From Sphagnum magellanicum (Eukaryota > Streptophyta > Sphagnopsida > Sphagnales > Sphagnaceae), in the NCBI GenBank assembly GCA_021904315.1, contig CM038923.1, positions 13,398,038 to 13,462,037 of the forward strand: a stretch of 64,000 bases of DNA, in the 5' to 3' direction. A model generated the notes under the pieces. That model saw nothing but the letters and a program-made list of their open reading frames with translations, did not search any database and was not told the origin of the DNA. Of the stretch, positions 6,075-64,000 are shown in pieces; position 1 is the stretch's first letter, and every line of letters starts with the position of its first letter. Made by a program: the position numbers and the translations under genes.

Positions 6075-7745
6075 AAACCCAAGTTAATTAACCAAATGAA
6101 ATGATTTTTGATGAAAAAACATGACCCCGAGCAATCCATGACCTTGGATGAAATAAATTTTGATGGATAAATTTATCCACATTGAATAGATGAATTCAAT
6201 GTATGAATTACATCCAAAAGCAATCACATGTATTTTTATGGATGTGAAATGATTCAATTGGACAAATTTTACCCAAGAAGATTAATAAATGATAGAATGA
6301 AATTTCATGTTATTTCAAAATGGAAAACATTGCATGCATGGAATATTACCTATAGTTTATTGCATCCATGAAATAATTCATTCAAAGTTTGTTTACGTAA
6401 TATAGTTCATCTAAATTCCATGATGGAACATCCATGGAATATCCTCCATGTATTTGAATGGATTAATCTTCATTCATATTTTTGTGGATGAAATTTCATT
6501 ACGTTTAGGATAAAATGAAGTTCACGTATGAAATATCATTTGCATTATTATTTCATCCACAAAATATACTTCATTCATAGTTTTTTTACATTCAATAAAA
6601 TTCAGCCATATTTGTTGGATGAATATCAATGAAATATCATTTGTGAATTTTCAATGGATGAACTTGGTTGAATGGATCATATTTCATGAACTTTCAAGAT
6701 GAATTAAAAATCATGCATATTTTTTTCCAATCTTTCATCATAAAAGTTCATCCAAATTGCATTCAAAAAATTTCATCCATGATACATTATAATCTAGCAT
6801 GGGATTTAGGTAGCATTTGAATTCAATTGTGTTGAAAATTTTGTGCCAACAAAATCTACTCCATGCATTCCATGTTCCATTGTCATTAATTAGTAACTAA
6901 TTGGATCCCCATCCTCCCATATATGTCAATGTTAAACAAACATGATGATGAGATGCATCAACTTTTAGATTAATGTAACTAACAAGAACTAACTATTGTA
7001 AAGAACCACTAGTCATAAAGTTGCATATATGGAATTTCATGAATGAAATAAAATTGTGGACAATATTCTATATTGGATAAAAAAATTCATGATCTTGAAT
7101 TTCATGAAATTTTTTCCATGAAAATTCAGCCATTCATCCATTGAAAATTCACAAATGATATTTTATGCACATTCATCCATAAAAAAATGGATGATCAATT
7201 TTTATGGTTGAAATAAAATTGAACTAAACTATATTTCATGGATGGAATAACCAATGTAGATGAAATTTCCTAACTTTTTTCATCTTAAAATGTCATCAAA
7301 TGTCACTTAAGAAAATCCATCCATTTTGCCATGAACTTTCATCCACAAAAGTTATGAATGAAGGATTATCTATTTTTCAATATCAATGAATTTTCATTCA
7401 TGGAATCTAGATGAATTGTGATAGACATAAAATGAATTTTGGATGAATTATTTTAGAGTTGAAATGAATTTCTAGATGATATTCCATGCATGAAAATTGT
7501 TTAATTTTGAAACAACCTAAAATTCCATCGAAATGTTTATTCATTCATTAGAAGAAATTTCATTTAATGGGGTCATTTCCCGTTCATAAAAAAATCCTTT
7601 TGATTTCATTGGACATAATTCGTACATGGAATTCATTTAATCAAAGGGGATAGATTCATCCATCAATGTTTATTTCATCCATAGACATAAATTGCTTTGA
7701 ATCATGGTTTCTCCATGAAAAACCATATGTGGTTAGTTAATTTCA
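6075..7745. repeat. Long imperfect palindrome (foldback element)
   Basis: The first half, read forward, matches the second half read in reverse complement. Three pairs show this: gttaattaacca near 6078 with ggttagttaatt near 7731; ggatgaaataaa and attgatggat near 6138-6160 with their complements near 7645-7690; and the ~45 bp around aatatcatttgtgaattttc near 6640 with its complement near 7140-7185. The centre is near 6900. Both halves are full of GGATGAA/TTCATCC words. No transposase is seen, so this could be a non-autonomous foldback or long-TIR element. A partial second copy lies at the end of the right arm, about 62690-64000. Confidence 0.7.
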
Positions 7746-7978
7746 CCAATCATCCATTCAGATCATGATTTATCATGTTATTCACATATCATTCAATGCA
7801 CTTAAATTCCACATTGTTTATAAATTTTGGAAGGCAAATGCCTAAGAGGTTATGGAATGCACTTAAGTATGGATGGAAAACCTCCCACAAATGGAGTGAC
7901 AAAAAAAATTAAAATTTGAATTTGAATCCTTTCACATTGCTCTCGAAATACAGTTAAAAATAATCTCATGACGTTAAC

Positions 7979-8266
7979 TTGAAAGGGTTACCTCACAAGG
8001 TTAAAAGGCCATCAAATCCACCCCCCCAAAAAAAAATTGAAGCGGTAAAGAAGAAGAAGACAAAGAAGGAAAAACAAAAAAAATACATAGGTTTGAACCC
8101 TGAATGGGCAACCTATGAAAATTGGGTAGTCTTTTGGGAGGAAGTTTCAAATAGAAAAGTGATAAATTTTAGGCATTGTGCAACTTCTAAATTTTTTAAT
8201 TTGGGCAATACACAAGATGAAATGCCTCCTAAACTTTTCATATGGCAACATGGAGTTGTCAATTAA
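7979..8266 (+). other. Unidentified 95-aa ORF, lysine-rich N-terminus
   Basis: The reading frame starts in a basic stretch rich in KKK and KEK, followed by PEWATYENWVVFWEEVSNRK and a C-terminal FIWQHGVVN. The corresponding DNA lies inverted at about 62200-62490. I do not recognise a family. It may be a fragment of a mobile-element protein. It lies inside the repeat arm, has no visible promoter and could be a chance ORF. Confidence 0.3.
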
Positions 8267-8388
8267 TGTTAAATCTTCCTTGCTAATGATGTTACATTAG
8301 AAAATTTGAAAAAACAAAACAAAAAAATCCTTGGTCTTCACTCTCCATAGAGGGGGGTTGTTGTTATGCTCATTGCACCCTAATCAAA

Positions 8389-8661
8389 TTGTTTGATTCA
8401 TTCGTGATTAAGGTAAACATGTCTATGAATGGCATGTATTATATGCATTTTGTTTTGTTTTGTCACACTAAGATCTCCCAAACCAAGGTGCTTCATGCCA
8501 TGCTTTTGTTCACCATCACTACTGTTACAACCACCAAGTGTGACAAATTGGAAAATGATTTTTTGGACCCATTTTCAAGTTTGTTCATGAAATGCAAAGT
8601 ACTAAACTCTATTCTAGTAATGTTACATTTTACTTTGGTTACAAAGAGCTTCCCAATTTAG
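8389..8661 (+). other. Unidentified small ORF present in both arms
   Basis: This frame encodes 90 aa with SQTKVLHAMLLFTIT and KCDKLENDFLDPFSSLF. The same frame stays open for 75 aa in the inverted arm (60846-61073). The right-arm copy is split from its upstream part by the 956-bp insertion at 61079. Family unknown; probably non-functional. Confidence 0.25.
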
Positions 8662-9189
8662 TTTTTCCTACTCTTCCAATGGTTGTTTATACATGAGCTT
8701 CAAGAACAACTAATTTGTGGAATTGAGTTTCAACACCATCAGATTGTGGAGCTTCAACCTTAGCAACTTTTAAGGAGCATTGCTATGAAAGGGTGTTGGT
8801 GGTAGGAGTGTGAGAAGCAATGGAGATGGGCATTTGAAGAGGAGCATGGAGGTGGGGGCAATATTAGCAAAATGTGAAAGCTTGTAGTTGTTGAAGGTTT
8901 TTTTTTTGTTCGAGTTGCCCTTTTGTTTCAGGTTTTTTTTTGGGGTCATGGTTGCCCTTTTTGAGTCAAGTTGTCCTTTTGTTATGAGTTGCCTTTTATT
9001 TTTATTTTTTCAAGGATGGCATCCATTTCCTCTCCCCATCATTCTTGAAATTTTTTATCTTTTAAGGGGGTTTTGCCCCCTTTTAGTTTTGAGTCTTTTA
9101 TTCTCATTATTTTCATGTTTTCGCCTTCGATTTTAAGGCTTCCTCCCTCTTCCAATCTTGGTGTGGTTCTTCATATTCATTGCACGGTT

Positions 9190-11000
9190 GGTCCCTTATG
9201 TTCCTCATAGGTCAAAATGGGGCCCACCACAACATCTCTTGTTCCGAATGTGGGTCATTATTTTCACATGGCATGGGGTGTCACCAAATGCACTATTAAA
9301 TATTTTCATGTTCTTCTAGTAGGTGATGCCCATGGTGCTTCAATTACCCCCTTGGTTTGTTCTCCACCTCTGGCTCCATGGGCCTGGGTTTTAATTTTGG
9401 AACCCCTTGGTGCCTTTCATTGAAGTCTTCATCACCCCCATTTGTACTTGCACATACCTTTTGCTTTGTGGCAAGAGGTGTAATTAGGTTTTTGACTCCC
9501 TTTCGATTGTGTTGTTCAAAATCTATTTGATGTGGCCACTTAACATTTATTCCTTTTGTTTCCACAATGGTGTCTCACCTTTCCCCTTAAAGGTGGATCA
9601 GTTGGGCATCGAAAGACCAAGGCGTGCCTTTGATGATTCCTTTCAAATGATTGGGAAAAATATGAAGCAAAACATCTTCTCAAAGCATGGGCATTTGTGG
9701 TGGTGTTGCTTGTGAGTCAAGTTCCTTTGGTGACCATGTTTTCTTTAGATCTTGTGCATGTCCTTCCCCCTGTTTGTTACTTTGAACAAGGTTTAGCCCT
9801 TAGGCATGCAAGGGAATTCACATGCATTGCTAGGGCTCTACCCCCCCTCCCCTCTTTGCCCCAACTCTAACCTCTTTTAAGATTATCAACATGTTGTGAG
9901 CTTTGTATCTTTCAAGCTCAACTTTTTGTTGATTGGATTCATAGATGGATTTTCAATCAAATGAAGACCTTGAATTTTCTTTTAATTCTTTTATGTTGGC
10001 ATTCATGCATTTGTCCCATTTGTCAACATGGGTCTTTTAGCCATGGACTTCAAACATTTCGAAGATTCTTTTGACCTAAAGCATATAATGAGTGTTTTCA
10101 TCTAGCTCACTAGCTAGGTTACCATGTGGCCATAGGCTGTATCCTAGGGTCTATTGTTTAGATTTTTAGTGCCGTTAGGATTTTGACTTTGGCCAAACCT
10201 TTAGGTGGTGTTCAACCAATAATAATGAACAAGGTGTTTTATTGGCTTGTAAGGCATTGTGTATTTAATTCAATGATGCGTTCTTTTCACATATGTTACC
10301 ACATCAGTTTGGTGTGGATATTAGGGGCGGGTGTGAGGTTATGGTTCATGTTATCCAAATTTGTTTAAAAGTCCAATTTGATTGGGCATTGCTTCAAGTG
10401 GACATTGTAAACGCTTTCAAATCCATTTTGTGTAAGGCTATATTTTAGGAGCTTTGGGTAGTAGGAGGCAAATTATAATAGCTTTTCCCTTTTGTTTATG
10501 TTTATTATGCTTACGAATCTCTTTCATCTTTTAGTCGTCACTTCCCTTCAAGAGATTTGTCCATCCTTTTTTCATCTATTGGTGTGTGCCAAGGCAATCT
10601 ATTTGTCAAACCCCTCTTTGTTCTTGCCCATTTTCATGATTTGCATTGTTTGTCAAACATTTTTCTCTTTTGTCTTTTTCCCTCTTTAGTTGATGACTCC
10701 CACGTCCTTGACCCCGTTTCTATCATGACCTTTGCTTTTGATCATTTCATCTTTCAACTAGTGTTCATGGCACAAGTTGTTTAGCCGCGCAAATGCTTAG
10801 CTCGGACCCTTTAAGGCCTCCCCCCTATTGACTTGTTTTTTTTCTTGCCATTGAGGTTTTTGGGTGTTTGCATCAACAAGCCAACAATTTTTTCAATCGT
10901 TTTGCTAGCATGACTCAATTAACAAAAGTCATCGAAAGTCTTCTTCTTTTGGTTTTGCATGCATTTTATAACTAGAGGGTGTTAGTGGTGTTGCAACAAA
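9190..11000 (+). pseudogene. Decayed LINE (non-LTR) reverse transcriptase ORF, left arm
   Basis: Several frames together read like a plant non-LTR reverse transcriptase. An N-terminal stretch, VGHYFHMAWGVTKCTIK and VLLVGDAHGA, lies near 9250-9340. RRAFDDSFQMIGKNMKQ is near 9630. The RT start LAKPLGGVQPIIMNKVFYWL is near 10190. Motif A region QVDIVNAF is near 10400, and the catalytic box region LVDDSHVLDPVSI is near 10690. The frame is interrupted by many stops and shifts, so no protein can be made. Neither an endonuclease domain nor a poly-A tail was identified. The inverted copy is at 58690-60330, so this insertion predates the arm duplication. Confidence 0.7.
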
Positions 11001-12138
11001 TACAAGCTACATCTATTTCGAGGTGAGTCATTATTGTTGGTGAAGGTTTTTCTATGCTAGGTTTTTTTCTAGCATAACTCTCCTTTCCTTTTCTAACATG
11101 TTTCTTGTGACAAGGGGGTTGGGTATGTGACTTTTTCCCATTCTTCTTACTTGTCCACTTGGTAAAGGTTTTTGTTTTATGGCCTAGATGTGGGTCCTTT
11201 CCTTTTGTTTTTCATTCTCCCCCTTCATTGGGTGCTTTATCTTAATAAATTTTTAGCAAGGTTTCATCATCTTGATATCTTCAAAAAACACTCAACGAAT
11301 AGGGGTGCACCAATTTGGATTGAGACTATTTGGAGCTACTATGTGGAAGCTATTCATTATTGAATCATTTTCTCAATGAAAATTAAATAAAATTGAAATT
11401 GAAAATCGTATTGGAATTTGGGGGCATTCTTGGTGTTGTTGAAAAGCCTTGAACAAGTCAAATTTAATAAGATTATTTCACAATTTTTAGAGCCAAGGTG
11501 TGAAAGATATTGATTTTTTAATGAATTTTGTTACCAAAAATTCAAACAAACTACAAAAATTTGGTTTGAAAGGAAAAATCAGTTGAGCTCTCAATGTGTT
11601 CACACTTGGGGCAACAACATAGGCTACATTAGTGTTATATTAGTATTGGAATTTTGACGTCAATCTCACAAATTAATGGCAAAATTTTAACTTGCAATAT
11701 TACAATTTTTCAAATGAGTTTATGTCATTAATGTCAAATAGTAATGAATATATAATTCACCTATTTAAAAAACCACATATTTTAAATTGTAATAAATGAA
11801 ATCACAAATTTTACCTCACATAGGTCAAAAACCAAAACCTTGGTATTGTAAGGAAAAACCATATGATATTGTTGAGTTTAGGGTTTGCTGTTGGGCACCA
11901 ACTAGAATTGTTGTGATCTTTGCCAACAAACATCATCATTGAAAATTTTTGTTTTTTGGTTATAGACTCATTGGTTATCTTATTGTGATTTTTTTAGATA
12001 CCTAACTAATTAGAATGTACCTTAACCCATTAAATTTTTTCCTCTAACATTTGTGGGTTGTTTCAAGAAATAAAATGCCTCCTCCATCTAGCATTTCAAA
12101 TTTGGAAATGACTCTCATCTTTTTTCTTCAAAAAAAAT

Positions 12139-12381
12139 TTGGATAATTTCTTTATGTTTGGTAAAATCCTTAGTGCACTCCCAAGACAAACTTTATGGGA
12201 TAAGGTATCCATTTCACTTAACTATCAACCCAAAAAAATAGACCTTCAAGTGAATAATATGTATGGGATAAAAAGTGGTGTTATTGATAACAAGGTAAAC
12301 AACACATTGGAATTGTGTAAACAACATAGGAAAACATTTGGCAAAGTATATGAAATTAAGGATCAAATCATTGACACCTAA
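12139..12381 (+). other. Unidentified 80-aa ORF kept open in both arms
   Basis: It contains ALPRQTLWDKVSISLNYQPK and QHRKTFGKVYEIKDQ. The inverted copy (57112-57375) is also open and differs at about 7 of 77 shared residues. That is close to what neutral drift in the arms would give, so openness is weak evidence of function. No family was recognised. Confidence 0.3.
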
Positions 12382-12566
12382 AAGGAACTTTGTTAGGAAC
12401 ATGATTGGGAACATGTAGGGGAACAAAACTTTTCATCCCCAAAAATTCAAGTTCCCCTTTCCCTTAAAGGTAAAAATAGTGATCAACATGTTTAATTCAT
12501 ATTAGCTCACCTCATCAAACACCTAAAAATTATTTTTGGAACAATTTTCAACATTCATTTCATATA

Positions 12567-12923
12567 ATGTGTGGCACATCCATAGAGCTGATTCAAGGTT
12601 TAAATATTTTTCAAGGATTGCATTTGACATGTGATATTCATGTCTTAATTTATTATATTAAAATTTTCATTTTTCATACACATGTTAAATATTTCTTGAA
12701 TATATCTTGGTTTTATATTATATATATTATGCATCCATGTTTTTTAACATATAAAAATGAATCATTTTTGTTCAATACACATTCAATTTATTGTGCTCCC
12801 CTTGTGATTTTTCAAAGATATGAAATTATAATTTTAAACATTGTTCACACACATGTGATTATTTTTATTGTGTTTATAGACCTTAGTAGAAAAATAAAAA
12901 CACAAATTGTAGTACACAGGTAA
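12567..12923 (+). other. Unidentified 118-aa hydrophobic ORF kept open in both arms
   Basis: This is a hydrophobic, Ile/Phe/Tyr-rich frame typical of AT-rich DNA. Examples are SWFYIIYIMHP and IVFIDLSRKIKTQI. The inverted copy (56656-56961) is open for 101 aa. It is probably a chance ORF; it is recorded because it survived in both copies. Confidence 0.2.
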
Positions 12924-13959
12924 ATTTCAAATGTTTGAATTTGTCCATATTTACAACCAAAAACATTGATTACAAAATTCTTTTGATCCCACCATGTGGT
13001 TCAATGTCATAATTCTCAAATTCATTTATAGACTAGTGATTTTTTCTATTTAAAGGAACATAATAAAACAATGCACATACTTAAATAAACTATAGAAATT
13101 TCTCCCATGGTTTGTTGTAGCTCCTTACAACTTAGCAATTGAGATGATCAAGCCACAAGCAGTGAAACAAACTTGGCATGCACATTCATACCTAATTTTT
13201 TTACTAAAACCTTAATTAATTTTAGGGTGTAAACAAGGTGAAGTAGACAAAAAAGTAGTCTTTTTAAAATCTAATTAAAAAATGAAACAATTTTTGATAT
13301 GGACATAAGAAAGTAGATTCAAAATATTTTGAAGTAGAAATATAAAACCATAGGTCTCTGTATTTAGTTTATAGGAAGTTGAATACAATGTTTGAATAAC
13401 TTTGGTATCATAAGAATAGGTTGAAAGTACGTTTGAAACTAACTAGACCAAAATGGTGTTCAAATTTACCTCATATTAATAATTTGATATATTATGATTA
13501 TAAAATCCATAATTTGATAATACATAAGTATCTTTTAGAGATCCACTAAACTTAAATTTTAAGAAAATTAATATTTCATTTACATGTAACCCATTTTGTA
13601 AGATGAAACATTTTGTGTAGGTAGAAACATTTAAAAAAATTCTACTTCATTCTACTTTCAAAATGGGGTTTTCCAAATTTTCAAATATGAAATGAAAGAT
13701 TATCATCATGTTAATTATTATACCAAAAAAAAAATCTACTTTCGATACATTAAAACTTTTTCATGGTTACATGTAATTTTTTTAACAAGGAGCCATGAGC
13801 TGTCTACTTTACCTTGCTTGCACCCTTTAGTTGAGGTAAGGGGTCAAGACATTTACAAAAAATGTAAACGCATTTATGTATATGAAAGAATTGAAAAACC
13901 TATTGTTGATTACAACTTGACTTTCTCGTAAAATGTGAGCTTGATAGGGATTATCAATT

Positions 13960-14900
13960 TCTCAACCCTAGCCTAGGGCTCACTACCAAGGCAAGGGCTT
14001 GCAAGAGAGTGGGACAAGATGGAGGCCCAGGAGACACATCTTACTCCTGGGAGTGTAGGAGAGTGTGAGAGAATGAACTCTCACACTCCCAAGGCAACTT
14101 CCATTTGGGGAGTTGGAGTCCTGTGGACTACCAAATCTTTGAGGAACAATTATAGGGATCAAAACCCATTAGATTGAAGAGTTTTTTATATCATTGAAAA
14201 GCTATTGAAACGTAGATGTCTAAAATGGGCTCACATCACCCATTTGGATATCTGAAACATAAAATTATGACCAAAAGAAAAGCCGGGAGTCAAATTGACA
14301 GTTTGACTCTCGACCACTAAAAGTCAAAAATCGACCCGATTTCCTTATGTTCAAGTGGCATGTGACATATCGTTGAAAGCTCTCGACGAGGGCTATAATT
14401 TTGCTTTAAACCTCATTTCAATCGAAGGTTTGCACACAAAGTTATAAGGCCCCAAAGTCGTGGGAGTCCCAACTTTAACAATTTTGGGACTCACATTTGG
14501 GAATCTCGCAACAAAAACTCATTTACATGTGGGCCTCGTGGAGAGGCACAAAGTATACTATAAGGGGAAAGGTAGTGGCTTCCCCCAAGTTCGGGCCGTG
14601 GTGAGTTTTATGAATCCGAGTTGCCCGTGGCTCATCCTAACACCAAAAGTGCTCCAACTATGCACTAACCATTTTGTGTTGGTTTTGTGCAGGTCCATGT
14701 GAATAGTTGATGTTTGTCACTCTTCCTAATCCCATCCTGAACCTCCAACATGCCCTTTTACCCCTTTTAAAGTGTTGTGTGTTAGGGAGTGTGCCTTGAC
14801 TCCTTGCTCTTTCGATGTTTTCAATTTGGACTCACATTTGAGTTCATTAAGGAGCTTGGGGGTGGGTCAATCAATCCTTGCCAATTAGGCTTTCACATGA
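13960..14900. repeat. GC-richer block inside left arm, element type unknown
   Basis: Base composition rises clearly compared with the AT-rich flanks. The block holds repeated short phrases such as tgggagtgt/gagagtg and cacactccc. It resembles untranslated internal sequence of plant LTR elements, but no coding domain, LTR or primer-binding site was found. The inverted counterpart is at about 54740-55620. Confidence 0.4.
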
Positions 14901-15072
14901 TAGAATCAGCTTGGTGTAATTAAATCTATAACCTTACATGATGTACATATATTTGTTATGTTATGCATGCAACCTCAAAATGACACACATGTATAAACAA
15001 AAAAGGTTTTAAGTAAACACTAGTGGACTTTAACAAACTCTCCATCTTCTCAATGGTTATAAAAAAGTTTGA

Positions 15073-15285
15073 TTAATCACATAGATGTGCAAAAAATTGA
15101 AAGACACACAAAATTTTTAAATAATGATGCCACGTGACATTTTGCAATAAGGAGACACACCAAGTTTTCAAATTTTCTTCACCAAACAAAAAAGACATGT
15201 AAAACACAAGGTTCATGAATAAGTGCAAATGTAACAAACCTTGCAAGAGCTTTGACCAATAATAGAATGTAGTCGATGCCTTCAC
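15073..15285 (-). other. Small unidentified ORF
   Basis: This is a 70-aa frame with no recognisable motif, inside the repeat arm. The counterpart in the right arm (about 54360-54560) has similar DNA. It is probably not a gene. Confidence 0.12.
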
Positions 15286-16317
15286 TTGTGGATCTCTTCT
15301 TCAAGTTTTCTATACATCATGTATATATTGAACATTATTACGTTCAATCATGCTTGCAATGGACAGGTTGATGGATGAAGAATAAGAAATTTTGATGTAA
15401 ATAACATGCAAGTAGCCCATGATGGGTTCCACTCTTTCAAGATTCAAATCAACCTTCACCAAACAATGAAATTCAAAATTCAAAGTTTGAAAATCAAGGG
15501 ATTTTGGAATTTTCCAATCGCCAAAAGCTAGAAAAAAAAAGTAGGAAAAATCACTAGATTTCTATACTTGGTTTTTAATGTGTAGCCAAAATGTAGAAAC
15601 ATGATTAAGGATTTGTATTTCATATTTGGTTTATAGCTAGATTTGGTTAAACCTTACCAAACATGATCACAACTAAGTTGGCTATAAACAAAAAATCTTA
15701 TTGGGGGGGGTAGGGTTTTAAGTGCATTTTTAAGACTCATATTGCTACAATTACCATGTAACATGTAAACCTAATTAACTATAATTTCATCAAATGTAGC
15801 AAATTGTATTGGAAAAGATGGTTGAAATTTTGTTTAGATGAATGAAAAAAGATTTCCTATTCATTATGTTGGTTATGTTGGCGACCATTTTGGTTCTTCC
15901 ATGTTTTTGTGGTCCCAATAGTGTTTAGGACCGAATAACATGGAAGAGCCAAGAGGGCTACCATTATGCTATACATTACAACACCAAATCACAAAACCCA
16001 ATAGTGGCAAAACCATTACACACTAATTTAAACCCTAAACCCTAAACCTTAAAAACCTGAACTAGCTTATTCCCATTGTCAAAACTTGTCTGAGCATGCA
16101 TGTCTTGTGACAATATACCATGCTACCTTGGCTACTACGACACATGTTTGACAATTAATTAATACAATATGAGGATTCTTTTCCCACAAATGATATATAT
16201 TCCTAGATATTCAAATAGATACTTTATTTTCCTCCCCAAAAAATATTTTTTGCAAAAGAAACTTAAAATTTGAAAATTTCAACATTTTTTGAAAATAATA
16301 TAATTAATGTTGAATTG

Positions 16318-17159
16318 GCACATTTATTATGGTACTTATCAAATGAGAGCTAGGGACTTAATTTGCAATTGGCAACCCCACCTGCACATTTGCAAACTTA
16401 AAAAACCTTGCGTTAATAAAAAGAAAAACCTATGACATTGATTCAAAACTAACAACATGATTCACAAAACCATAGATTTATGGAATTTTTAAAATGTTCC
16501 CAATGTGTTCCCACCAAGTTCCCATCATGAAGTTTTCAACGTGTTCACATCAAGATCCCAATGTGTTCCCACACACTAGAATAGTGGGGAAATTCATTAG
16601 AACAAGTGGGGCAATGTTTCAACAATTCACATAAAAACACCAACTATTTGAGTGGGACGAAGGTAACACAAATAATGGGTATAACTCATGGATATGTACC
16701 ATAAGTTTATAGAATTTATAATTATTCAAAGAAGTTTAATTTATTCATTTGCGTCGTTGGGTAGTGGGTGCTTAATAGTGAACCAATAAACTACAAAGGT
16801 TTTGTCCTATTTCCAATTATAGGAACATTTCAAATGTAAAGAAGTCATAAAATGGGGATTGTTGAAAATCCAAATGGCCCAAATATGGATGAATGAATAT
16901 TTTATGTAATGGGTGTAAAAGAAACATTATGACATTGATTCAAAATTAACATGATTAAAAAACCATAGATTTTCTGAATTTTGATGTTCACAATGTGTTC
17001 CCACCATGTTCCCATTTCATTCCCCAAGTTACCAATGTGTTTTCATCATCAATTGATACTAATGTTGTTTTTAAACAAGAACTTACTTTGTCTTTTAGAA
17101 GTGTGACTTAAAAAAAATCCAAGTCCATGTACATGCTTGTTTGAAAAACTTTGATTTTT
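16318..17159 (+). repeat. Block B, left copy (same orientation in both arms)
   Basis: It matches 40691-41533 in the direct orientation, while both neighbours (blocks A and C) match the other arm in reverse complement. It begins gcacatttattatgg and ends tttgattttt. The 6-bp word CACATT sits at its start and AATGTG just past its end, forming a very short inverted pair. It has no coding capacity. Repeated gtgttccca phrases occur inside. Confidence 0.9.
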
Positions 17160-18326
17160 GAATGTGTTAAAAGTTATAAGGACATGTTTGCCAAACATTA
17201 GGCATTTAATCCAAATATAGCAATTGGTACATAACTATGTAGGATTTATTAGATTTTCTACCACATTTAGAAAATCAAGGCAGAAATGATGTAACCTCAT
17301 ACTATTGAGGTCCTTGCATGTATTGCATATTCCTAACAAACCATACAAACATGTGTGATTAGTCAAATGTAAATAAATACAACATTGAAAATTTTCAAAA
17401 ACACCCAATAACAAGAATGTAAAATTTACATCTAATCATGAATGACACCATGATGCAAATTGCCTTAAGTTCACACTAATGTAGAACTTCCATCTAATCA
17501 AGCATGATAACATCATCCAAATTACCCTAAATCATGCCCCTTTTATTTAACTATTAAAATTAAACAACCTCAAAATTTTACAAAGTTGCACAAATAAAAC
17601 ATAATCCACCTGTGTGTCTCGTAGGATATCTTATAATATTCTATTGATTTAGTAATATTATATTTTTCATTGATAAATGATAAGAAATAATTTGATCTTT
17701 TGAACATGTGATTTAATTTTGATTTTGTTTGTGGATGTGTTTAAAGATTAAATTTTTCATTAATCATTTTGGCCTTTGGGACACATGACCAAAAAAATTA
17801 AAAACAACCCAAGTTTAAAACCATACTTGGTGGAATTGCAAAAGGTTTATTGACATGTAATGGATAAGATGAAAAAATTGAATGGGAAATTTCTTTCTCA
17901 TTTTATCTTTCATTTTTCTTATAAAAATCAGCTTGACTTTAGGTAATTTAGGAGGACCCTTTTATCATCATAACAATAACTATAAAAAAATCTGAAGTGT
18001 TGAAAGTATCAAGGTGACATGTGGAATATTTTATCACCATATCCAAGTGGTTTAGTAGTCAAATTATTGGAGAATAATTTTTTAAAAATAAAGTAGGGTA
18101 GAGAGGTTAATGTCCAAACACTTAGTGGGATGCAAACCTTTTATTTTTAATTGAGTGATTGGTTGGCAATGCTTTTCAAAGACCAAATGTAAGTTGGCTA
18201 TGGGCGCTCCTATGATGCTTTGAATTGCCTAAAATGGTGAAGAAAACATGTAAGTTATGGCCATTCAAAGTGAAAGGGGTAAAACATTTCATAAAAATTG
18301 GCTATGTACACCTCTTTCTTGTTATC
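17160..18326 (+). repeat. Large inverted repeat, left arm, block C (inner end)
   Basis: It matches 39524-40690 in reverse complement over 1167 bp. It begins gaatgtgttaaaag and ends at tgttatc, where the two arms part and the unique loop begins. No genes. Confidence 0.92.
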
Positions 18327-51195: not shown

Positions 51196-51200
51196 AAACC

Positions 51201-51311: not shown

Positions 51312-51478
51312 CTTGTAAAGCAATCTGAATTTGTTTTTTACTACCAAACTGACCTTTTCAGTAAGCACTCCGAGAAACTTCTTACCACTCCATGAAATTT
51401 CCGAATGTATTTCGAAGGTCGCCATATATATATTCATGAATATCCATCATAGAAAAGAGGATGGATCTTACTCCTAAA

Positions 51479-51506
51479 GAGTGGAGTGGAGTGGAGTGGA
51501 GTGGAG
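51479..51506 (+). repeat. (GGAGT)5 microsatellite
   Basis: Five near-perfect gtgga/ggagt pentamers. A simple repeat with no other context. Confidence 0.9.
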
Positions 51507-52275: not shown

Positions 52276-52314
52276 TGGACATGATGTTCCTGTGCTAATG
52301 TTTTCTACTCCATA

Positions 52315-52523
52315 CCCTAGTTGAATAGCAGGTTTGTGGGGGTCTCTGCTGAATTTTTAAAAAATTTCGAAGATTTCATTTTGACAAATAATGTATTCCC
52401 CAATACTCCAAAATATGCTTCATTTGCCTTCACCAAAAAAAATTCTTTGAGAAAAATATTTTCAAAAATTTCAGCATGTCTAAAAATAATATAATTTTTG
52501 TTGAACCTGCTATTCAACTAAGG
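52315..52523. mobile_element. 209-bp MITE with 20-bp TIRs and TA target duplication
   Basis: The left end ccctagttgaatagcaggtt and the right end aacctgctattcaactaagg are inverted copies with one mismatch. TA lies directly outside both ends (52313-52314 and 52524-52525). The TA target fits a Tc1/mariner-superfamily source. No coding capacity. Confidence 0.85.
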
Positions 52524-53822
52524 TAGTGCACACCCATCCATTCTGTTTTGCATAATGTCCTCCTAACCAAGTCACGGGAATTCCGCCTGTCAAATGCTCC
52601 TTGCAGAATTCAGCTTGTATCCCTTGTAAGATGGGATTCCCAATAACCCTAACAAAATCTATTCGTGTAAATTGATGCAAACTAGTTCAAGGCAGTGATT
52701 TTTTGGGGTGAGTTTTTGCTTTTTTATAGATTTTTTGTGAAAAAACTTTGATGCAAAAACATAGCTATCACCAAAGCTTTTGCACATAATCACTCCTTAT
52801 TTGCTTTAGAAATTGATATTTCAACATTAATTATATTATTTTCAAAAAATGTTGAAATTTTCAAATTTTAAGTTTGTTTTGCAAAAAATATTTTTATGGG
52901 AGGAAAATAAAGTATCTATTTGAATATCTAGGAATATATATCATTTGTGGGAAAAGAATCCTCATATTGTATTAATTAATTGTCAAACATGTGTCGTAAT
53001 AGCCAAGGTAGCATGGTATATTGACACAAGACATACATGCTCAGACAAGTTTTGACAGTGGGAATAAGCTAGTTCAGGTTTTTAAGGTTTAAGGTTTAAA
53101 TTAGTGTGTAATGGTTTTGCCACTATTGGGTTTTGTGATTTGGTGTTGTAATGTATAGCATAATGGTAGCCCTTTTGGCTCTTCCATGTTATTCGGCCCT
53201 AAACTCTATTGGGACCAAAAAAACATGGAAGAGCCAAAATGGTCGCCAACATAACCAACATAATGAATAGGAAATCTTTTTTCATTCATCTAAACAAAAT
53301 TTCAACCATCTTTTTTAATACAATTTGCTACATTTGATGAAATTATAGTTAATTAGGTTTACATGTTACATGGTAATTGTAGCAATATGAGTATTAAAAA
53401 TGCACTTAAAACCCTACCCTACCCAACCCCCCCCCCCCGCCCCCTCGCCCCCAATAAGATTTTTTTGTTTATAGCCAACTTAGTTGTGATCATGTTTGGT
53501 AAGGTTTAACCAAATCTGGTTATAAACCAAATATGAAATACAAATCTTTAATCATGTTTCTACATTTTGGCTACACATTAAAAACCAAGTATAAAAATCT
53601 AATGATTTTTCCTGCTTTTTACTTTTAGCTTTTGGTGATTGGAAAATTCCAAAATCACCTAATTTTCAAACCTTGAATTTCGAATTTCATTGTTTGGTGA
53701 AGGTTGATTTGAATCTTGAAAGAGTGGAACCCATCATGGGCTACTTGCATGTTGTTTACATCAAAATTTCTTATTCTTCATCCATCAACCCGTCCATTTA
53801 CAAGCATGATTGAACGTAATAA

Positions 53823-54288
53823 TGTCGTGATGTGTAGTGTCGTGACGTACGGTGTCGTAAGGATGAAAATACGTAATAAATCCTTCTTAACAAAAAGACT
53901 AAAGTCAGTTAAAGGTATTAACTAATCAACTAAAAAGATATGCATGCACACATATATATACAATGCACAAGGGAGGCTGAGATGAAATTTTCATGTATAT
54001 TGAATTGCAAAGAAAGAAGGAAATGAAATGTATGTAGACGGTGGTCGTGCAATGGCCGTCGTGAACATCTAGAAATCCTAGCTTATTATAGAAGAAACTC
54101 CTGACAAAGGAATTCTAAAAAAAATAAAAGGAGAAAAAAAGGGTCAGGCCTTTTATACCACCTCCAACAAACTGAAACCCTAAATACCAAATAGCGTACT
54201 ATCACCTAAGACCATACGTTAACCCTAAAAGCGCACATAGGCATGCCCGTAACTAGCCATGATGTATGAGGCCATGTACGGGCATGAC
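53823..54288. mobile_element. Possible solo LTR or similar insertion in right arm
   Basis: A 466-bp insertion relative to the left arm (empty site near 15333-15345). AATAA flanks it on both sides (53818-53822 and 54289-54293), which is the 5-bp duplication typical of LTR elements. It begins TGTCGTGA, with this word recurring about every 15 bp at the start, and ends near GGGCATGAC(A). No coding region is present. It is younger than the arm duplication. Confidence 0.6.
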
Positions 54289-54739
54289 AATAATACTCAA
54301 TATATACATGATGTATAGAGAACTTGAAGAAGAGATCCACAAGTGAAAGCATTGACTACATTCTATTATTGGGTCAAAGCTCTTGCAAGGTTTGTTACAT
54401 TTGCACTTATTCATAAACCTTGTGTTTTACATGTTTTTTTTGTTTAGTGAAGATAATTTGAAAACTTGGTGTGTCTCCTTATTGCAAAATGTCATTTGTG
54501 GCATCATTGTTTAAAATTTTTGTGTGTATTTCAATTTTTGCACATCTATGTGGTTAATCAAACCTTTTTATAACCATTGAGAAGATGGAGAGTTCGTTAA
54601 GGTCCACTAGTGTTTACTTAAAACCTTTTTTGTTTATACATGTGTGTCATTTTGAGGTTACATAACATAACAATTAAATGTACATCATGTAAGGTCATAA
54701 ATTTAATTACACCAAGTTGATTTTATCATGTGAAAGCCT

Positions 54740-55620
54740 AATTGGCAAGGCTTGATTAACGCACCCCCGAGCTCCTTAATGAACTCAAATGTGAGTCTAA
54801 ACTGAAAATAGCGGTAGTCGAAACATGCTCCCTAACTCACAACACTTTGAGAGGGGTAAAAGGGCATGTTGGAGCTCTAAGATGGGACTAGAAGAGTAAC
54901 AAACATCAGCTATTCACATGGACTTGCACAAAACCAACACAAAGTGGTTAGTGCATAATTGGAGCACTTTTGGTGTTAGGACGAGCCATGGGTAACTCGG
55001 GCTCATAAAACTCACCACGGCCCAGACTTGGGGGAAGCCACCACCTTTCCCCTTATAGTATACTTTGTGCCTCTCCACGAGGCCCACATGCAAATGGCTT
55101 TTTGTTACGAGACTCCCACGATTTTGGGGCCTTATAATTTTGTGTGCAAACCTCCAATTGAAATGAGGTCTAAAGCAAAATTATAGCCCTCATCGAGAGC
55201 TTTCAACGATATGTCGCACGCCACTTGAACATAAGGAAATCGAGTCAATTTCCGACTTTTAGTGGTCGAGAATCAAACTACCAATTTGACTCTTGGCCTT
55301 TCTTTTGGTCATAACTTATGTTTCAATATCCAAATGGGTGATTCAAGCCCATTTTAGACATCTACGTTTCAATAGCTTTTCAATGATATAAAAAACTCCT
55401 CAATCTATTGGGTTTTGATCCCTACAATTTCTCCTCAAAGATTTGAAAGTCCACCAGGACTCTAACTCCCCAAATGGGAGTTGCCTTGGGAGTGTGAAGG
55501 TTCATTTTCTCACACTCTCCTACACTCCCAGGAATAAGATGTGTCTCCCGGGCTTCCATCTTGTCCCACTCTCTTGCAAGCCCTTACTTTGATCGCGAGC
55601 CCAAGGTTATGGTTGAGACA
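54740..55620 (-). repeat. GC-richer block, right-arm copy
   Basis: Inverted counterpart of 13960-14900. See that entry. Confidence 0.4.
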
Positions 55621-56655
55621 TTGATAGTCCCTATCAAGCTCACATTTGAGGGGAAAGTCAAGTTGCAATCAACAATAGGTTTTTCAATTCTTTCATATAC
55701 GTAAATGCATTTACATTTTTTGTAAATGTTTTGAGTCTTTAGCTCAACTAAAGGGTGCAAGCAAAGTAAAGTAGACAATTCATGGCTCCTTGTTAAAAAA
55801 ATTACATGTAGCCATGAAAAAGTTTTAATGTATCGAAAGTAGATTTTTTTTTTTGGTATAATAATTAACATGATGAATCTTTCATTTCATATTTGAAAAT
55901 TTGGAAAACCCCATTTTGAAAGTAAAATGAAATAGAATTTTTTAAAATGTTTTTACCTACATAAAATGTTTCATTTTACAAAATGGGTTACCTATAAATG
56001 AAATATTAATTTATTTAAAATTTAAGTTTAGTGGATCTCTAAAAGATACTTATGTATTATCAAATTATGGATTTTATAATCATAATATGTCAAATTATTA
56101 ATATGAAGTAAATTTGAACACCATTTTGATCTAATTAGTTTCAAACGTACTTTCAACCTATTCTTATGAAACCAGAGTTATTCAAACATTTTATTCAACT
56201 TCCTATAAACTAAATACAAAGACCTATGGTTTTATATTTCTAATTCAAAATATTTTGAATCTACTTTTTTATGTCTATATCAAAAATTGTTTCATTTTCT
56301 AATTGGATTTTTAAAAGACTACTTTTCTTGTCTACTTTACCTTGTTTACACCCTAAAATGAATTGAGGTTTTAGTAAAAAAATTAGGTATGAATGTTCAT
56401 GCCAAGTTTGTTTCACTGCTTGTGGTTTGATCATTTCAATTACTAAGTTGTAAGGAGCTACAACAAACCATGGGAGAAATTTCTACAGTGTTATTTAGTT
56501 ATGTTCACTGTTTTATTGTGTTCCTTTAAATAGAAAAAATCACTAGTCTACAAATGAATTTGAGAATTATGACATTGAACCACATGGTGGGATCAAAAGT
56601 ATTTTGCAATTAATGTTTTTGGTTGTAAATATGGACAAATTCAAACATTTGAAAT

Positions 56656-56961
56656 TTACCTGTGTATTACAATTTGTGTTTTTATTTTTCTACTAAGGTC
56701 TGTAAACACAATAAAAACAATCACATGTGTGCGAACAATGTTTAAAATTATAATTTCATATCTTTGAAAAATCACAAGGGGAGCACAATAAATTGAATGT
56801 GTAATAAACAAAAATGATTCATTTTTATATGTTAAAAAAAATGGATGCATAATATATATAATATAAAACCAGGATATATTCAAGAAATATTTAACATATG
56901 TATGAAAAATGAAAATTTTAATATAATAAATTAAGATATGAATATCACATGTCAAATGCAA
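56656..56961 (-). other. Unidentified ORF, right-arm counterpart of 12567-12923
   Basis: 101 aa open frame, hydrophobic, same family of sequence as the left-arm ORF with a few substitutions. Probably not a gene. Confidence 0.2.
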
Positions 56962-57111
56962 TCCTTGAAAAATATTTAAACCTTAAATCAGCTCTATGGA
57001 TGTGCCACACATTATATGAAATGAATGTTGAAAATTGCTCCAAAAATAATTTTTAGGTGTTTGATGAGGTAAGCTAATATGAATTAAACATGTTGATCAC
57101 TATTTTTACCT

Positions 57112-57375
57112 TTAAGGGAAAGGGGAACCTGATTTGATATACTTGATTTGATCCTTAATTTCATATACTTTGCCAAATGATTTCCTATGTTGTTCACACA
57201 ATTTCAATGTGTTGTTTACCTTGTTATCAATAACACCACTTTGTATCCCATACATACTATTCACCCGAAGGTCTATTTTTTTGGGTTGATAGTTAAGTGA
57301 AATGGATACCTTATCCCATAAAGTTTGTCTTGGGAGTGCACTAAAGATTTTACCAAACATAAAAAAATTATCCAA
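57112..57375 (-). other. Unidentified ORF, right-arm counterpart of 12139-12381
   Basis: 87 aa open frame sharing ALPRQTLWDKVSISLNYQPK with the left copy. The C-terminus differs. No family recognised. Confidence 0.28.
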
Positions 57376-58689
57376 ATTTTTTTTGAAGAAAAAAGATGAG
57401 AGTCATTTCCAAATTTGAAATGCTAGATGGAGGAGGCATTCTATTTTTTGAAACAACCCACAAATGTTAGAGGAAAAAATCTAATGGGTTAAAGTACCTT
57501 CCAATTAGTTAGGTATCTAAAAAAATCATAATAAGATAATCAATGAATCTATAACCAAAAAACAAAAGTTTTCAATGATGATTTTTGTTGGCAAAGATCA
57601 CAACAATTCCAGTTGGTGCCCAACATCAACCCTGAACTCAACAATATCATATGGTTTTTCCTTACAATAGCAAGGTTTTGACTTTTGACCTATGTGAGGT
57701 AAAATTTGTGATTTCATTTATTACAATGTAAAATATGTGGTTTTTAAAATAGGTGAATTATATGTTCATTACTATTTGACATCAATGACATAAACTCATT
57801 TGAAAAATTGTAATATTGCAAGTTCAAATTTTGCCATTAGTTTGTGAGATTGATGTCAAAATTCCAATACTAATATAACATTAATGTAGCCTATGTTGTT
57901 GCCCCAAGTGTGAACACATTGAGAACTCAACTGATTTTTCCTTTCAAACCAAATTTTTGTAGTTTGTTTGAATTTCTAGCAATAAAATTCATTAAAAAAT
58001 CAATATCTTTCACACCTTAGCTCTAAAAATTGTGAAATAATTTTATTAAAATTGACTTGTTCAAGGCTTTTCAACAACACCAAGAATGCCCCCAAATTCC
58101 AATACAATTTTCAATTTCAATTTTATTTAATTTTCATTGAAAAAATGATTTAATAATGAATAGTTTCCACGTAGTAGTTCCAAATAGTCTCAATCCAAAT
58201 TGGTGCACCCCTATTCGTTGAAAGCTGAAGATATCAAGATGATGAAACCTTGCTAAAATTTATTAAAATAAAACACCCAATGAAGGGGAGAATGAAAAAC
58301 AAAAGGAAAGGACCCACATCTAGGCCATGAAACACAAACCTTTACCAAGAGGACAAGTAAGAAGAATGGGAAAAAATCACATACCCAACCCCCTTGTCAC
58401 AAGAAACATGTTAGAAAAGGAAAGGAGAGTTATGCTAGAAAAAACCTAACATAGAAAAACCTTCACCAACAATAATGACTCACCTCGAAATAGATGTAGC
58501 TGACATTTGTTGCAACACCACTAACACCCTCTAGTTATAAAATGCATGCAAAACCAAAAGAAGAAGACTTTTGATGACTTTTGTTACCTGAGTCATGTTA
58601 ACAAAACAATGGAAAAAATTGTCGGCTTGTTGATGCAAACACCCAAAAACCTCAATGGCAAGAAAAAAAACAAGTCAATAGGGGGGAGG

Positions 58690-60330
58690 CCTTAAAGGGT
58701 TCGACCTAAGCATTTGCGAGGCTAAACAACTTGTGCCATGAACACTAGCTGAAAGATGAAATGACCAAAAGCAAAGGTCATGATAGAAACAAGGCCAAGG
58801 ATGTGGGAGTCATCAACTAAAAAGGGAAAAAGACAAAAGAGAAAAGTGCTCGATGAACAATGCAAATCATGAAAATGGGCAAGAATAAAGAGGGGTTTGA
58901 CAAATAGATTGCCTTGGCACACACCAATAGATGAAAAAAGGATGGACAAATTTCCCGAAAGGAAATGATGACTAAAAAATGAAAGAGATTCGTAAGCATA
59001 ATAAACATAAACAAAAGGGAAAAGTTATTATAATTCGCCTCTTACTACCCAAAGCTCCTAGAATATGGCCTTACACAAAATGGATTTGAAAGCGTTTATA
59101 ATGTCCACTTGAAGTAATGCCCAATCAAAATGGACTTTTAGACTAATTTGGATAACATGAACCATAACTTCACACCCACCCCTAATATCCACACCACTGA
59201 TGTGGTAACATGTGTGAAAAGAATGCATCATTGAATTAAATACGCAATGCCTTACAAGCCAATAAAACACCTCGTTCATTACTATTGGTTGAACACCACC
59301 TAAAGGTTTGGCCAAAGTCAAAATCTTAGCAACATTAAAAATCTAAGCAATAGACCCTAGGATACGACCTATGGCCACATGGTAACCCAGCTAGTGAGCT
59401 GGATGAAAACATTCATTGTATGCTTTAGGTCAAAAGAATCTTCGAAATGTTTGAAGTCCATGGCTAAAAGACCCATGCTGACAAATGGGACAAATGCATG
59501 AATGCCAACATAAAAGAATTAAAAGAAAATTCAAGGTCTTCATTTGATTGAAAATTCATCTATGAATATAATCAACAAAAAGCTAAGCTTGAAAGATACA
59601 AAGCTCGCAACATGTTGATAATCTTAGAAGAGGTTAGAGTTGGGGCAAAGAGGGGAGGGGGGGTAGAGCCCTAGAAGTGCATGTGAATTCCCTTGCATGC
59701 CTAAGGGCTAAACCTTGTTCAAAGTAACAAACAGGGGGAAGGACAAGCACAAGATCTAAAAAAGGCATGGTCGCCAAAGGAACTTGACCCACAAGCAACA
59801 TCACCACAAATGCTTGTGCTTTGAGAAGATGTTTTGCTTCATATTTTTCCCAATCATTTGAAAGGAATCATCAAAGGCACGCTTTGGTCTTTTGATGCCC
59901 AACCGATCCACCTTTAAGGGGAAAGGTGAGACACCATTGTGGAAACAAAAGGAATAAATGTTAAGTGGCCACATCAAATAGATTTTGAGCAAGACAATTG
60001 AAAGGGAGTCGAAAACCTAATTGCACTTCTTGCCACAAAGCAAAAGGTATGTGCAAGTACAAATGGGGGTGATGAAGACTTCAATGAAAGGCACCAAGGG
60101 GTTCCAAAGTTAAAACCTAGGCCCATGTAGCTAGAAGTGGAGAACAAACCAAGGGGGTAATTGAAGCACCATGGGCATCGCCTACTAGAAGAACATGAAA
60201 ATATTTAATAGTGCATTTGGTGACACCCCATGCCATGTTGTGAAAATAATGACCCACATTCGGAATAAGAGATGTTGTGGTGGGCCCCTTTTGACCTATG
60301 AGGAACATAAAGGACCAATCGTGCAATGAA
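58690..60330 (-). pseudogene. Decayed LINE reverse transcriptase ORF, right arm
   Basis: Inverted copy of 9190-11000. Here the frame from LAKPLGGVQPIVMNEVFYWL through GVDIRGGCEVMVHVIQ to LQVDIINAFKSI (motif A, with its Asp) is open over 59058-59321, longer than in the left copy. The motif C region FLVDDSHILGLVSIM lies near 58800. Stops and shifts elsewhere make it non-functional. Confidence 0.7.
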
Positions 60331-60845
60331 TATGAAGAACCACACCAAGATTGGAAGAGGGAGGAAGCCTTAAAATCAAAGGTGAAAACATGAGAATAAT
60401 GAGAATAAAAGACTCAAAACTAAAAGGGGGCAAAACCCCCTTAAAAGATGAAAAATTTGAAAAATAATGGGGAGAGGAAATGGATGCCATCCTTGAAAAA
60501 AATAAAAATAAAAGGCAACTCATAACAAAATGACAACTTGACTCAAAAAGGGCAACCATGACCCAAAAAAACAACTTGAAACAAAAGGGCAACTCGAACA
60601 AAAAAAAAACCTTCAACAACTACAAGCTTTCACATTTTGCTCATGTTGCCCCCACCTTCATGCTCCTCTTCAAATGCCCATCTCCATTGCTTCTCACACT
60701 CCTACCACCAACGCCCCCTCATAGCAATGCTCCTTAAAAGTTGCTAAGGTTGAAGTTCCACAATCTGATGGTGTTGAAACTCAATTCCACAAGTTAGTTG
60801 TTCTTGAAGCTCATGTATAAACAACCATTGGAAGAGTAGGAAAAA

Positions 60846-61073
60846 TTAAATTGGGAAGCTCTTTGTAGCCAAAGTAAAATGTAACAATACTAGAATAAAG
60901 TTTAGTACTTTGCATCTCATGAACAAACTTGAAAATGGGTCCAAAAAATCATTTTCCAATTTGTCACACTTGGTGGTTGTAACAATAGTGATGGTGAACA
61001 AAAGCATGGCATGAAGCACCTTGGTTTGGGAGATCTTAGTGTGACAAAACAAAACAAAATGCATATAATACAT
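60846..61073 (-). other. Unidentified ORF, right-arm counterpart of 8389-8661
   Basis: 75 aa, matching SQTKVLHAMLLFTIT and KCDKLENDFLDPFSSLF. The 956-bp insertion lies just upstream of it. Confidence 0.22.
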
Positions 61074-61078
61074 GCCAT

Positions 61079-62034
61079 AGTAAACATCACATATTTTACA
61101 TTGTAATGGATGTAATCACAAAATTGCCTTGACACATGAGCCATGGCATGTCGTTATAGGAAAGACCATATTCCATGTTAATGATTGTGTGAAAAAAAAA
61201 AATTCTTTTGAAAGTGCAACAATAGACCCAATTGAATCATTAGCACCCCCCCAAGTCAAGCTTAATGGCACAAGGTCTACATGACTTTCACTTGCACACC
61301 ATTGGGTTTGAACTAGTTTTGTGCAAGTATATCTTTTACCTTAATATATTCACCATATCTAAATAAAATACATTATTTGTCCTACATTGTTTTTAAAAAT
61401 CAACAAGCCCTAATGAAGTGCATACCTAAAAGTATCTAAATTTCAAATTTTATATTTTATTCATGACATTACATATATGTAAAACATACTCTTACCCAAA
61501 GCTAGATATGTTTTGGAATTCAAGTAGAAACAATTAGTGTATGTATGATTTAACCCATAAGTTTTGTTAATTATGTTAATTTGATGGGTACCTATCTAAT
61601 CTTTTTTCTTTTTTTCTTCATTTTTTGTAGTGAGGCAATTTGATTGGCACATCACAAAAAAAATTTGAAACTTTGGAAGCTCCCCGAAAATACAATGTTT
61701 TATATGATGATGTAATGTTTCCATTTTGGCCCAACTATAAAGGTGGGCATGGGGGAACTCTAAGCAAACCATATATAATAAAATTGAAGATTACGAAGAT
61801 GTGGTAAAAAGTGCACATGTTAGGAATGATAAGTGTGTGGTAAGGATATATTTCAAATGGAAGGTCCTTTTATTTTGAAAGGTCATAATTTTTATATCAC
61901 TTGATGAAATTGGATGATTCAAAAGGCTATTGAAATGCCCAAAGATGTGTTACAAATTACTTTCAAACTTTGTCACCAACTAAGCTTCAACTATGACATC
62001 ATTGCTTTTTAATACACTAATCATTCATAGACAT
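61079..62034. other. 956-bp segment present only in right arm
   Basis: The left arm reads straight through at about 8423-8430 (ctatgaatggcatgtatt). In the right arm the same site is split, with CAT on both sides of the extra DNA. Part of the extra DNA (about 61087-61180) resembles another place in the arm, about 11772-11870, so it may be a dispersed element. No ORF of note. Confidence 0.7.
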
Positions 62035-62689
62035 GTTTACCTTAATCACGAATGAATCAAACAATTTGATTGGGGTGCAATGAGCATAACAATAACCCCC
62101 CTCTATGGAAAGTGAAGACCAAGGATTTTTTTTGTTTTTTTTTTTCCAAATTTTTTAATGTAACATCATAAGCAAGGAAGATTTAACATTAATTGACAAC
62201 TCCATGTTGCCATATGAAAAGTTTAGGAGGCATTTCATCTTGTGTATTGCCCAAATTAAAGAATTGAAAAGCTGCACGATGCCTAAAATTTATCGCTTTT
62301 CTATTTGAAACTTCCTCCCAAAAGACTACCCAATTTTCATAGGTTGCCCATTCAGGGTTCAAACCTATGTATTTTTTTTTGTTTTTCCTTCTTTGTCTTC
62401 TTCTTTACCGCTCCAATTTTTGTTTTTGGGGGCGAGGGGTGGATTTGATGGCCTTTTAACCTTATGAAGTAACCCTTTCAAGTTAACCTCGTGAGATTAT
62501 TTTAAATTGAATTTTGAGAGCAATGTGAAAGGATTCAAATTCAAATTTTAATTTTTTTTGTCATTCCATTTCTGGGAGGTTTTCCATCCATACTTAAGTG
62601 CAGTCCACAACCTCTTAGGCATTTGCCCTCCAAAATTTATAAACAATGTGGAATTTAAATGCATTGAATGATATGTGAATAACATGATA

Positions 62690-64000
62690 AATCATGATCT
62701 AAATGGATGATTGGTGAAATTAACTAACCACATATGATTTTTCATGGAAAAACCATGATTCAAAGCAATTCATGTCTATGGATGAAATAAACATTGATGG
62801 ATGAATCTATCCCTTTTGATTAAATGAATTCCATGTATGAATTATGTCCAATGAAATCAAAAGGATTTTTTTATGAATGGGAAATGACCCCACTAATTTC
62901 TTCTAATGAATGAATAAACATTTCGATGGAATTTTAGGTTGTTTCAAAATTCAAAAAAAATCATGCGTGGAATATCATCTAGAGATTCATTTCAACTCTA
63001 AAATAATTCATCCAAAATTCATTTTATGTCTATCACAATTCATGTAGAGTCCATGAATGAAAATTCATTGATATTGAGGAATAGATAATCTTTCATTCAT
63101 AACTTGTGGATGAAAATTCATGGCAAAATGGATGGATTTTCCTAAGTGACATTTGATGACATTTTAAGATGAAAAAAGTTAGGAAATTTCATCTACATTG
63201 GTTATTCCATCCATGAAATATAGTTCAGTTCAATTTTATTTCAACCATAAAAATTGATCGTCCATTTTTTTATGGATGAATGTGCATAAAATATCATTTG
63301 TGAATTTTCAATGGATGAATGGCTGAATTTTCATGGAAAAAATTTCATGAAATTCAAGATGAATTTTTTTTATCCAATATAGAATATTATCCACAATTTT
63401 ATTTCATTCATGAAATTCCATCTATGCAACTTTATGACTAATGGTTCTTTACAGTAGTTAGTTCTTGTTAGTTACATTAATCTAAAAGTTGATGCATCTT
63501 GTCATCATGTTTGTTTAGCATTGACATATATGGGAGGATGGGGATCCAATTAGTTACTAATTAATGACAATGGAACATGGAATGCATGGAGTAGATTTTG
63601 TTGGCACAAACTTTTCAACACAATTGAATTCAAATGGTACTTAAATCCCATGCTGGATTATAATGTATCATGGATGAAATTTTTTGAATGCAATTTGGAT
63701 GAACTTTTGTGAATGAAAGATTGGAAAAAAATATGCATTATTTTTAATTCATCTTGATAGTTCATGAAATATGATCCATTCAACCAAATTAGTCCATTGA
63801 AAATTCACAAATGATATTTCATTGATATTCATCCAACAAATGTGCTGAATTTTATTGAATGTAAAAGAACTATGAATGAAGTATATTTTGTGGATGAAAT
63901 AATAATGCAAATGATATTTCGTACATGAACTCCATTTTATCCTAAATGTAGTGAAATTTCATCCACAAAAATATGAATGAAGATTAATCCATTCAAATAC
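62690..64000. repeat. Foldback element, right-arm copy (partial, cut by window end)
   Basis: Reverse complement of about 6451-7745. It is again rich in GGATGAA/TTCATCC words, with internal inverted halves. Confidence 0.65.

Follow-up and report, generated by a model that had tools for sequence, protein, structure and literature searches.

Arms, loop and genes of the locus

A stretch of 64,000 nucleotides of contig 17 (positions 13398038-13462037; hereafter the window) carries two long inverted copies of one sequence, the left and right arms, around a loop that holds a predicted alternative NAD(P)H dehydrogenase gene (Table 1). Positions are counted from the first base of the window (position 1 = 13398038), negative numbers denoting the left flank and numbers above 64000 the right flank. 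The arms were delimited by self-comparison of the window together with flanking sequence on both sides, and no N was present in the 144 kb counted (window and flanks). Genome-wide comparisons were made with an assembly of 438,994,042 bases in 31 contigs. This is presumably the haploid-genotype assembly of PMC9946827, in which Sphagnum divinum is described with 439 Mb, 19 chromosomes and a small sex chromosome, a haploid genotype and a contig N50 of 17.5 Mb.

Within the window, 6450-18326 and 39524-64000 aligned in six blocks of 91.6-96.3% identity (E = 0 each), confirming a preliminary description of 6451-18326 and 39524-64000 as inverted copies diverged by a few percent, with one of the blocks (16314-17159) in direct orientation. 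The arm lengths given there, ~12 and ~24 kb, were too short. With the flanks included, the left arm extends over ~47.3 kb and the right arm over ~58.5 kb, and both run beyond the window edges, as had been suspected of the unit; the left arm had been started at 6451 because the mirror of 1-6450 lies beyond base 64000. About 40.5 kb of the arms aligned in 11 blocks at 89.4-97.5% identity (10 blocks at 91.6-97.5%, one at 89.4%; a spurious 305-bp twelfth block at -10129 was excluded), and substitutions between the arms amounted to ~3.9% (1566 in 40,224 aligned bases, the spurious block included). Segmental duplications are paralogous stretches of >1 kb with 90% identity (PMC9851044, glossary), a definition that covers the arms apart from the one block at 89.4%. 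Arms of this kind might invert the loop by recombination and give double-stranded RNA, as proposed in the preliminary description.

Table 1. Positions of the features in the window and its flanks; S and S' are the two copies of a duplicate that borders the left arm, and Q is the loop segment.
Feature	Position	Strand	Remarks
Left arm, read as the derived copy	1..18326 in the window, on to ~-29007 (contig 17 ~13369030)	+	From self-comparison; inner end is the broken junction
NPF/PTR2-type transporter gene, later exons	1546..2612	+	Pfam PTR2; left arm
S', duplicate of S (-31752..-29066)	18329..21219	+	18329-18956 and 21154-21219 direct; middle 18953-21154 inverted in the left copy
Loop, 'normal' segment Q	21220..36274	+	NDB gene and broken Ty1/copia relic
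NDB-type (EF-hand) alternative NAD(P)H dehydrogenase gene	22475..26583	+	At least 4 exon frames: 22475-23497, 23669-24163, 25532-25945, 26194-26583
Dispersed repeat, right end of loop	36275..39600		Crosses the right-arm junction 39520/39524; related pieces back to 34108; extent into the arm set by the start of the query
Right arm, read as the source copy	39524..64000 in the window, on to ~98000	-	From self-comparison; inner junction intact within the dispersed repeat
847-bp block	40687..41533	+	Direct rather than inverted relative to left 16314-17159 (local 847-bp inversion)
11.3-kb right-arm-only stretch	41534..52819		Mosaic; compatible with gain or loss
943-bp segment	61079..62021		Shared by right arm and contig-9 copy; left arm lacks it at 8429-8431, where a 3-bp repeat lies

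The dehydrogenase that had been reported in the loop is borne out as a predicted gene with open exon frames, for which we assume the name NDB. Three of its exon frames together match positions 2-278 of 291 of the Pfam Pyr_redox_2 profile, the third with a score under the curated cut-off; an EF-hand is also present, and the C-terminal frame (26194-26583) is open, the Pfam scan having covered the other frames. The best paralogues are ~66-75% alike in DNA (all 10 of 10 candidates scored). No close copy of 22475-24166 or 24200-36274 was found elsewhere in the genome, save a 122-bp repeat at 24045-24166. The gene is not cargo, as it sits in the loop and no close copy of the part searched was found; to all appearance it is an ordinary host gene with a chance position between the arms. 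One NDB paralogue (contig 8, 9505876-9509355) lies ~270 kb from an arm copy on that contig; its divergence is old (70-75%) and the proximity is perhaps a coincidence. Further along the loop, 31410-33527 is a broken Ty1/copia-type relic with RVT_2 above the cut-off and integrase traces below it.

Both arms carry frames of a transporter gene that we take to belong to NPF. PTR2-type frames were also found in the right arm, and no stop occurred over 446 codons in the left, right and contig-9 copies; these codons were picked by eye inside three PTR2 frames, and the count is blind to bases inserted relative to the left arm. The ratio of nonsynonymous to synonymous rates (dN/dS) was 0.98 between left and right and 0.64-0.79 to contig 9, so constraint on the transporter would seem weak or selection mixed. 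No Pfam family was detected in four of seven further arm frames, nor in one of the two arm frames of the first scan. A tRNA scan and an Rfam scan gave no match.

Junctions, flanking duplicate and copies elsewhere

The direction of copying was read from the inner junctions. The inner tip of the arm (18250-18330, the reverse of 39524-39600) was matched at 20 other places in the genome, among the best 40 of 161 candidates scored. At 14 of these, the loop side of the right junction (to ~39520) adjoins the tip within 0-10 bp among the matches listed; the remaining six are not among the listed loop-side matches (best 39 of 3645 candidates scored). At none of the 20, among the matches listed, does the tip continue into S, as it does at the left junction. 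Since the repeat continues across the right junction elsewhere, that junction has kept its original, uninterrupted form and the left arm is a copy cut within the repeat; on this comparison, the right arm is the source and the left arm the derived copy. At the outer end, a degenerate AT-rich minisatellite continues past 98000 in the right arm, and the left arm begins inside it.

The dispersed repeat itself (34108-39600) has many listed copies on contig 18 at ~13.6-14.1 Mb (69-85%) and contains a degenerate 23/45/68-bp tandem array at 38.2-39.0 kb. No Pfam family was found in the three of its frames scanned (34926-35408, 35886-36362 and 36984-37304).

The left arm is bordered on both sides by a duplicate of ~2.9 kb, S just outside it and S' just inside, 89-94% alike, with gaps of 58 bp (S) and 2 bp (S') to the arm. 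Substitutions between S and S' were 5.4-6.2% in three longer blocks and 10.6% in a 66-bp block, which is inside the range of the arms, as a single event would give. At the border at 18953, S' has the order of a paralogue on contig 15 (which ends short of 21154), which makes the left S the rearranged copy. The two arms have both ends in common, which none of the other copies found shares with them, and the left arm is flanked directly by the 2.9-kb duplicate on either side; one event is therefore favoured over two independent insertions, in support of the old inverted duplication proposed earlier.

A search for the arm sequence elsewhere in the genome returned partial copies on contigs 5, 8 and 9, none of them sharing both ends of the contig-17 arms. 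On contig 8, 9185695-9207219 corresponds to arm -28361..-10196 and 9231560-9236237 to arm 1-4758 (88-98%); no arm match was found in the ~24 kb between these parts among the best 36 of 15,040 candidates, the first 3 kb being read directly. Contig 9 (1949136-1986676) corresponds to arm -13979..12249 with gaps, at 86-94% in the main blocks and 79% in one 230-bp piece, and contig 5 (15400174-15414619, reversed) to arm -9640..3421 in pieces, at 83-98%. Long matches to the inner part, 12250-18326, were confined to the two arms among the matches listed (best 40 of 11,172 candidates scored). The copies end at different places (-13979/12249 on contig 9, -28361/4758 on contig 8, -9640/3421 on contig 5), which argues against a unit with fixed termini, and the contig-8 copy also looks derived, as it ends within another dispersed repeat. 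The suggestion of a mobile unit with cargo is accordingly not upheld by these copies, which stop at different places, one of them inside another repeat; the arm family looks like a segmental duplication, not a mobile element.

Pairs from whole-genome duplication were considered for these copies and rejected: identity is mostly 86-98% over long, largely non-coding stretches, too high for a synonymous divergence (Ks) of 0.4-0.6, and, provided that the contigs are numbered as in PMC9946827, the ancestral groups of contigs 5, 8, 9 and 17 would be A, A, D and E. All five copies share pieces of window 1-3421. A rather doubtful proposal is that the arm is a plant 'core duplicon' around the NPF transporter gene, repeatedly duplicated at different times (left arm, contigs 8, 9 and 5), whose inverted pair on contig 17 would still be exchanging by gene conversion in a haploid-dominant plant.

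Changes and divergence of the arms

Three later insertions had been assigned to the right arm. Extra right-arm sequence is present, including a 2.1-kb insertion outside the window (66252-68361) with CACTA-like ends and a 3-bp TGA target duplication that is found in neither the left arm nor the contig-9 copy. The 943-bp segment does not fit that account, as the contig-9 copy also has 61079-62021, and a loss on the left is more probable than a gain in the right arm. Conversely, the right arm has no counterpart of left -11106..-5165, and has probably lost it, because contigs 9 and 5 hold most of this segment. Of the 11.3-kb stretch, ~4.8 kb matches contig 10 7783083-7788080 (89-95%) and pieces match contig 18 11897530-11900370 (80-94%), and this mosaic may mean that dispersed duplication at low copy number is common in the genome. 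It includes a tandem array at 45480-47043 with a 102-bp unit in ~15 copies (69% matches). A repeat of ~910 bp at 13957-14870 occurs on 16 contigs at 81-85% among the matches listed; the arms are here among their more diverged, at 6-9%.

Divergence between the arms is uneven, ranging from 0.3% to ~11% in 1-kb windows (spurious block left out), with 320 private changes in the right arm and 209 in the left. When divergence between left and right was set against that between left and contig 8, the two were similar in 7 of 10 segments, and left-right divergence was 2.5-3.7 times lower in the other three. These are the adjacent segments -16859..-16532 (2.0 vs 4.9%) and -16488..-13640 (1.1 vs 3.9%), and the segment 1..1490 (1.2 vs 3.7%). 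Moreover, over 22 windows the balance between left-right differences and changes private to contig 9 was more uneven than in all 5000 permutations. We consider gene conversion between the arms likely in some tracts, and these gene-conversion-like tracts suggest that the arms have recombined with each other.

Several points tell against this. The comparison with contig 8 was made against the left arm only, by alignment scores, and the low divergence at 1-218 may reflect coding constraint. Windows with an excess of differences also contribute to the unevenness, and of the low windows even the two most extreme (P = 0.0026 and 0.010) fail correction for 22 windows. Likewise, a longest-run test for gene conversion was not significant (441 of 5000 permutations). 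A four-way count of sites with the short contig-8 piece gave two sites joining left and right and one joining left and contig 8, too few to order the copies.

In PMC9946827, a duplication dated to 102-122 million years has a Ks of 0.406, which corresponds to a rate of ~1.8e-9 per site per year. At this rate, a divergence of 3-5.5% would place the duplication very roughly at 8-15 million years, which is close to the diversification of the genus Sphagnum at 7-20 million years (PMC9946827).

Proposed origin and known systems

The probable origin of the locus is, in our judgement, an event of the type duplicate, normal segment, inverted duplicate (DUP-NML-INV/DUP), most simply by break-induced replication with template switches, followed by changes in the arms and some gene conversion. 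The ancestral order would have been P - S - Q - A - F, where A is today's right arm and has not moved since. A single complex event would then have placed a reversed copy of A between two copies of S; the resulting order is P - S - A (inverted copy) - S' - Q - A - F. Two new junctions would account for this layout. One of them (J1) would join the end of S (~21219) to the outer end of A (~98000, in the degenerate AT-rich minisatellite), and the other (J2) would connect the inner end of A (39524, in the dispersed repeat) with the start of S (18329). A further step, in the same event or later, would have inverted the central 2.2 kb within the left S. Afterwards, each arm would have gained, lost or inverted pieces, and some tracts would have been re-homogenised by arm-to-arm gene conversion. 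The order and orientation of S, Q and A are those of the DUP-NML-INV/DUP pattern, S being direct in its outer parts only, with the middle inverted in one copy.

Both the junctions and the duplicate raise difficulties for this origin. For replicative repair, J2 (18326/18329) offers 0-2 bp of microhomology and contains two unexplained bases, and J1 (-29066/-29007) contains 58 unassigned bases. Furthermore, 2.2 of the 2.9 kb of the left S are inverted, the direct frame comprising ~0.63 kb and 66 bp (89%), and this inversion requires an extra step that adds two breaks beyond the two junctions. With junction microhomology weak or absent, template switching is no more than the favoured mechanism. 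The same final sequence would result from two junctions if a copied or excised 50-kb fragment had been joined in inverted orientation into a staggered double-strand break in S, fill-in of the overhangs duplicating S, and both the lack of convincing microhomology and the two extra bases at J2 agree with this. Such an insertion is unlikely in our view, as it presupposes that a fragment of 50 kb was free and that the overhangs were 2.9 kb long, and a source of the fragment must be assumed while A remains in place.

Inverted placing of haplotigs is a known assembly error, and the evidence comes from the assembled sequence alone, which also counts against the replicative origin. It is nevertheless very improbable that a second haplotype or a repeat was placed here in reverse: divergence spans 0.3 to ~11% along the arms, their insertions and losses differ and some are common with contig 9, the left arm agrees at either end with the S duplicate, the 144 kb counted contain no N, and there is no second haplotype to misplace if this is the haploid S. 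divinum assembly (PMC9946827). We give even less credence to a large mobile element (~47 kb) with several insertions, of which contig 17 would hold one in each orientation. The partial copies on contigs 5, 8 and 9 speak for it, but they have no shared termini, and the nine arm frames scanned, few among the total, gave no transposase or integrase. Hardly more plausible is alternative transposition via the ends of two CACTA-type elements. These elements are abundant in Sphagnum (PMC9946827), one CACTA-like insertion lies in the right arm, and such transposition creates duplications in maize (PMC3744419); at neither junction, however, was a CACTA terminus seen by eye, the inner junction cutting a dispersed repeat and the outer one lying in the minisatellite.

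Taken together, the locus is a real, old and well-preserved complex inverted segmental duplication, of a kind already known from other genomes. It is an unusually legible fossil of a complex duplication: the source is distinguishable from its copy, and so are the two junctions and the outgroup copies. Among the open-licence papers listed, we found no earlier report of this duplication and, by title or beginning of abstract, none of a comparable inverted segmental duplication in a bryophyte; the word 'segmental' is absent from the main text of PMC9946827. If our reading and the species are true, a haploid-dominant plant can retain rearrangements of the type seen in human genomic disorders over millions of years, and gene conversion between arms can be measured at this locus in the absence of allelic copies.

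The DUP-NML-INV/DUP pattern is described in human genomic disorders, where complex rearrangements are tied to replicative repair such as microhomology-mediated break-induced replication (MMBIR) (PMC9851044). The present locus likewise has a duplicate, a normal segment and an inverted duplicate on one chromosome, but it lies in a plant reference genome, is millions of years old by our rough dating, and is overlaid by later insertions and gene-conversion-like tracts. It also resembles segmental duplications and low-copy repeats with inverted pairs, being longer than 1 kb, near or above 90% identity, dispersed as well as intrachromosomal, mosaic and unevenly diverged; as a difference, it is found in a bryophyte-like genome. 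Mammalian Y chromosomes contain large palindromes with gene conversion between the arms. Like these, the arms described here are inverted, tens of kb long and locally raised in identity, although they are more diverged (~4%), are separated by a spacer of 21 kb and lie on an autosome-sized contig.

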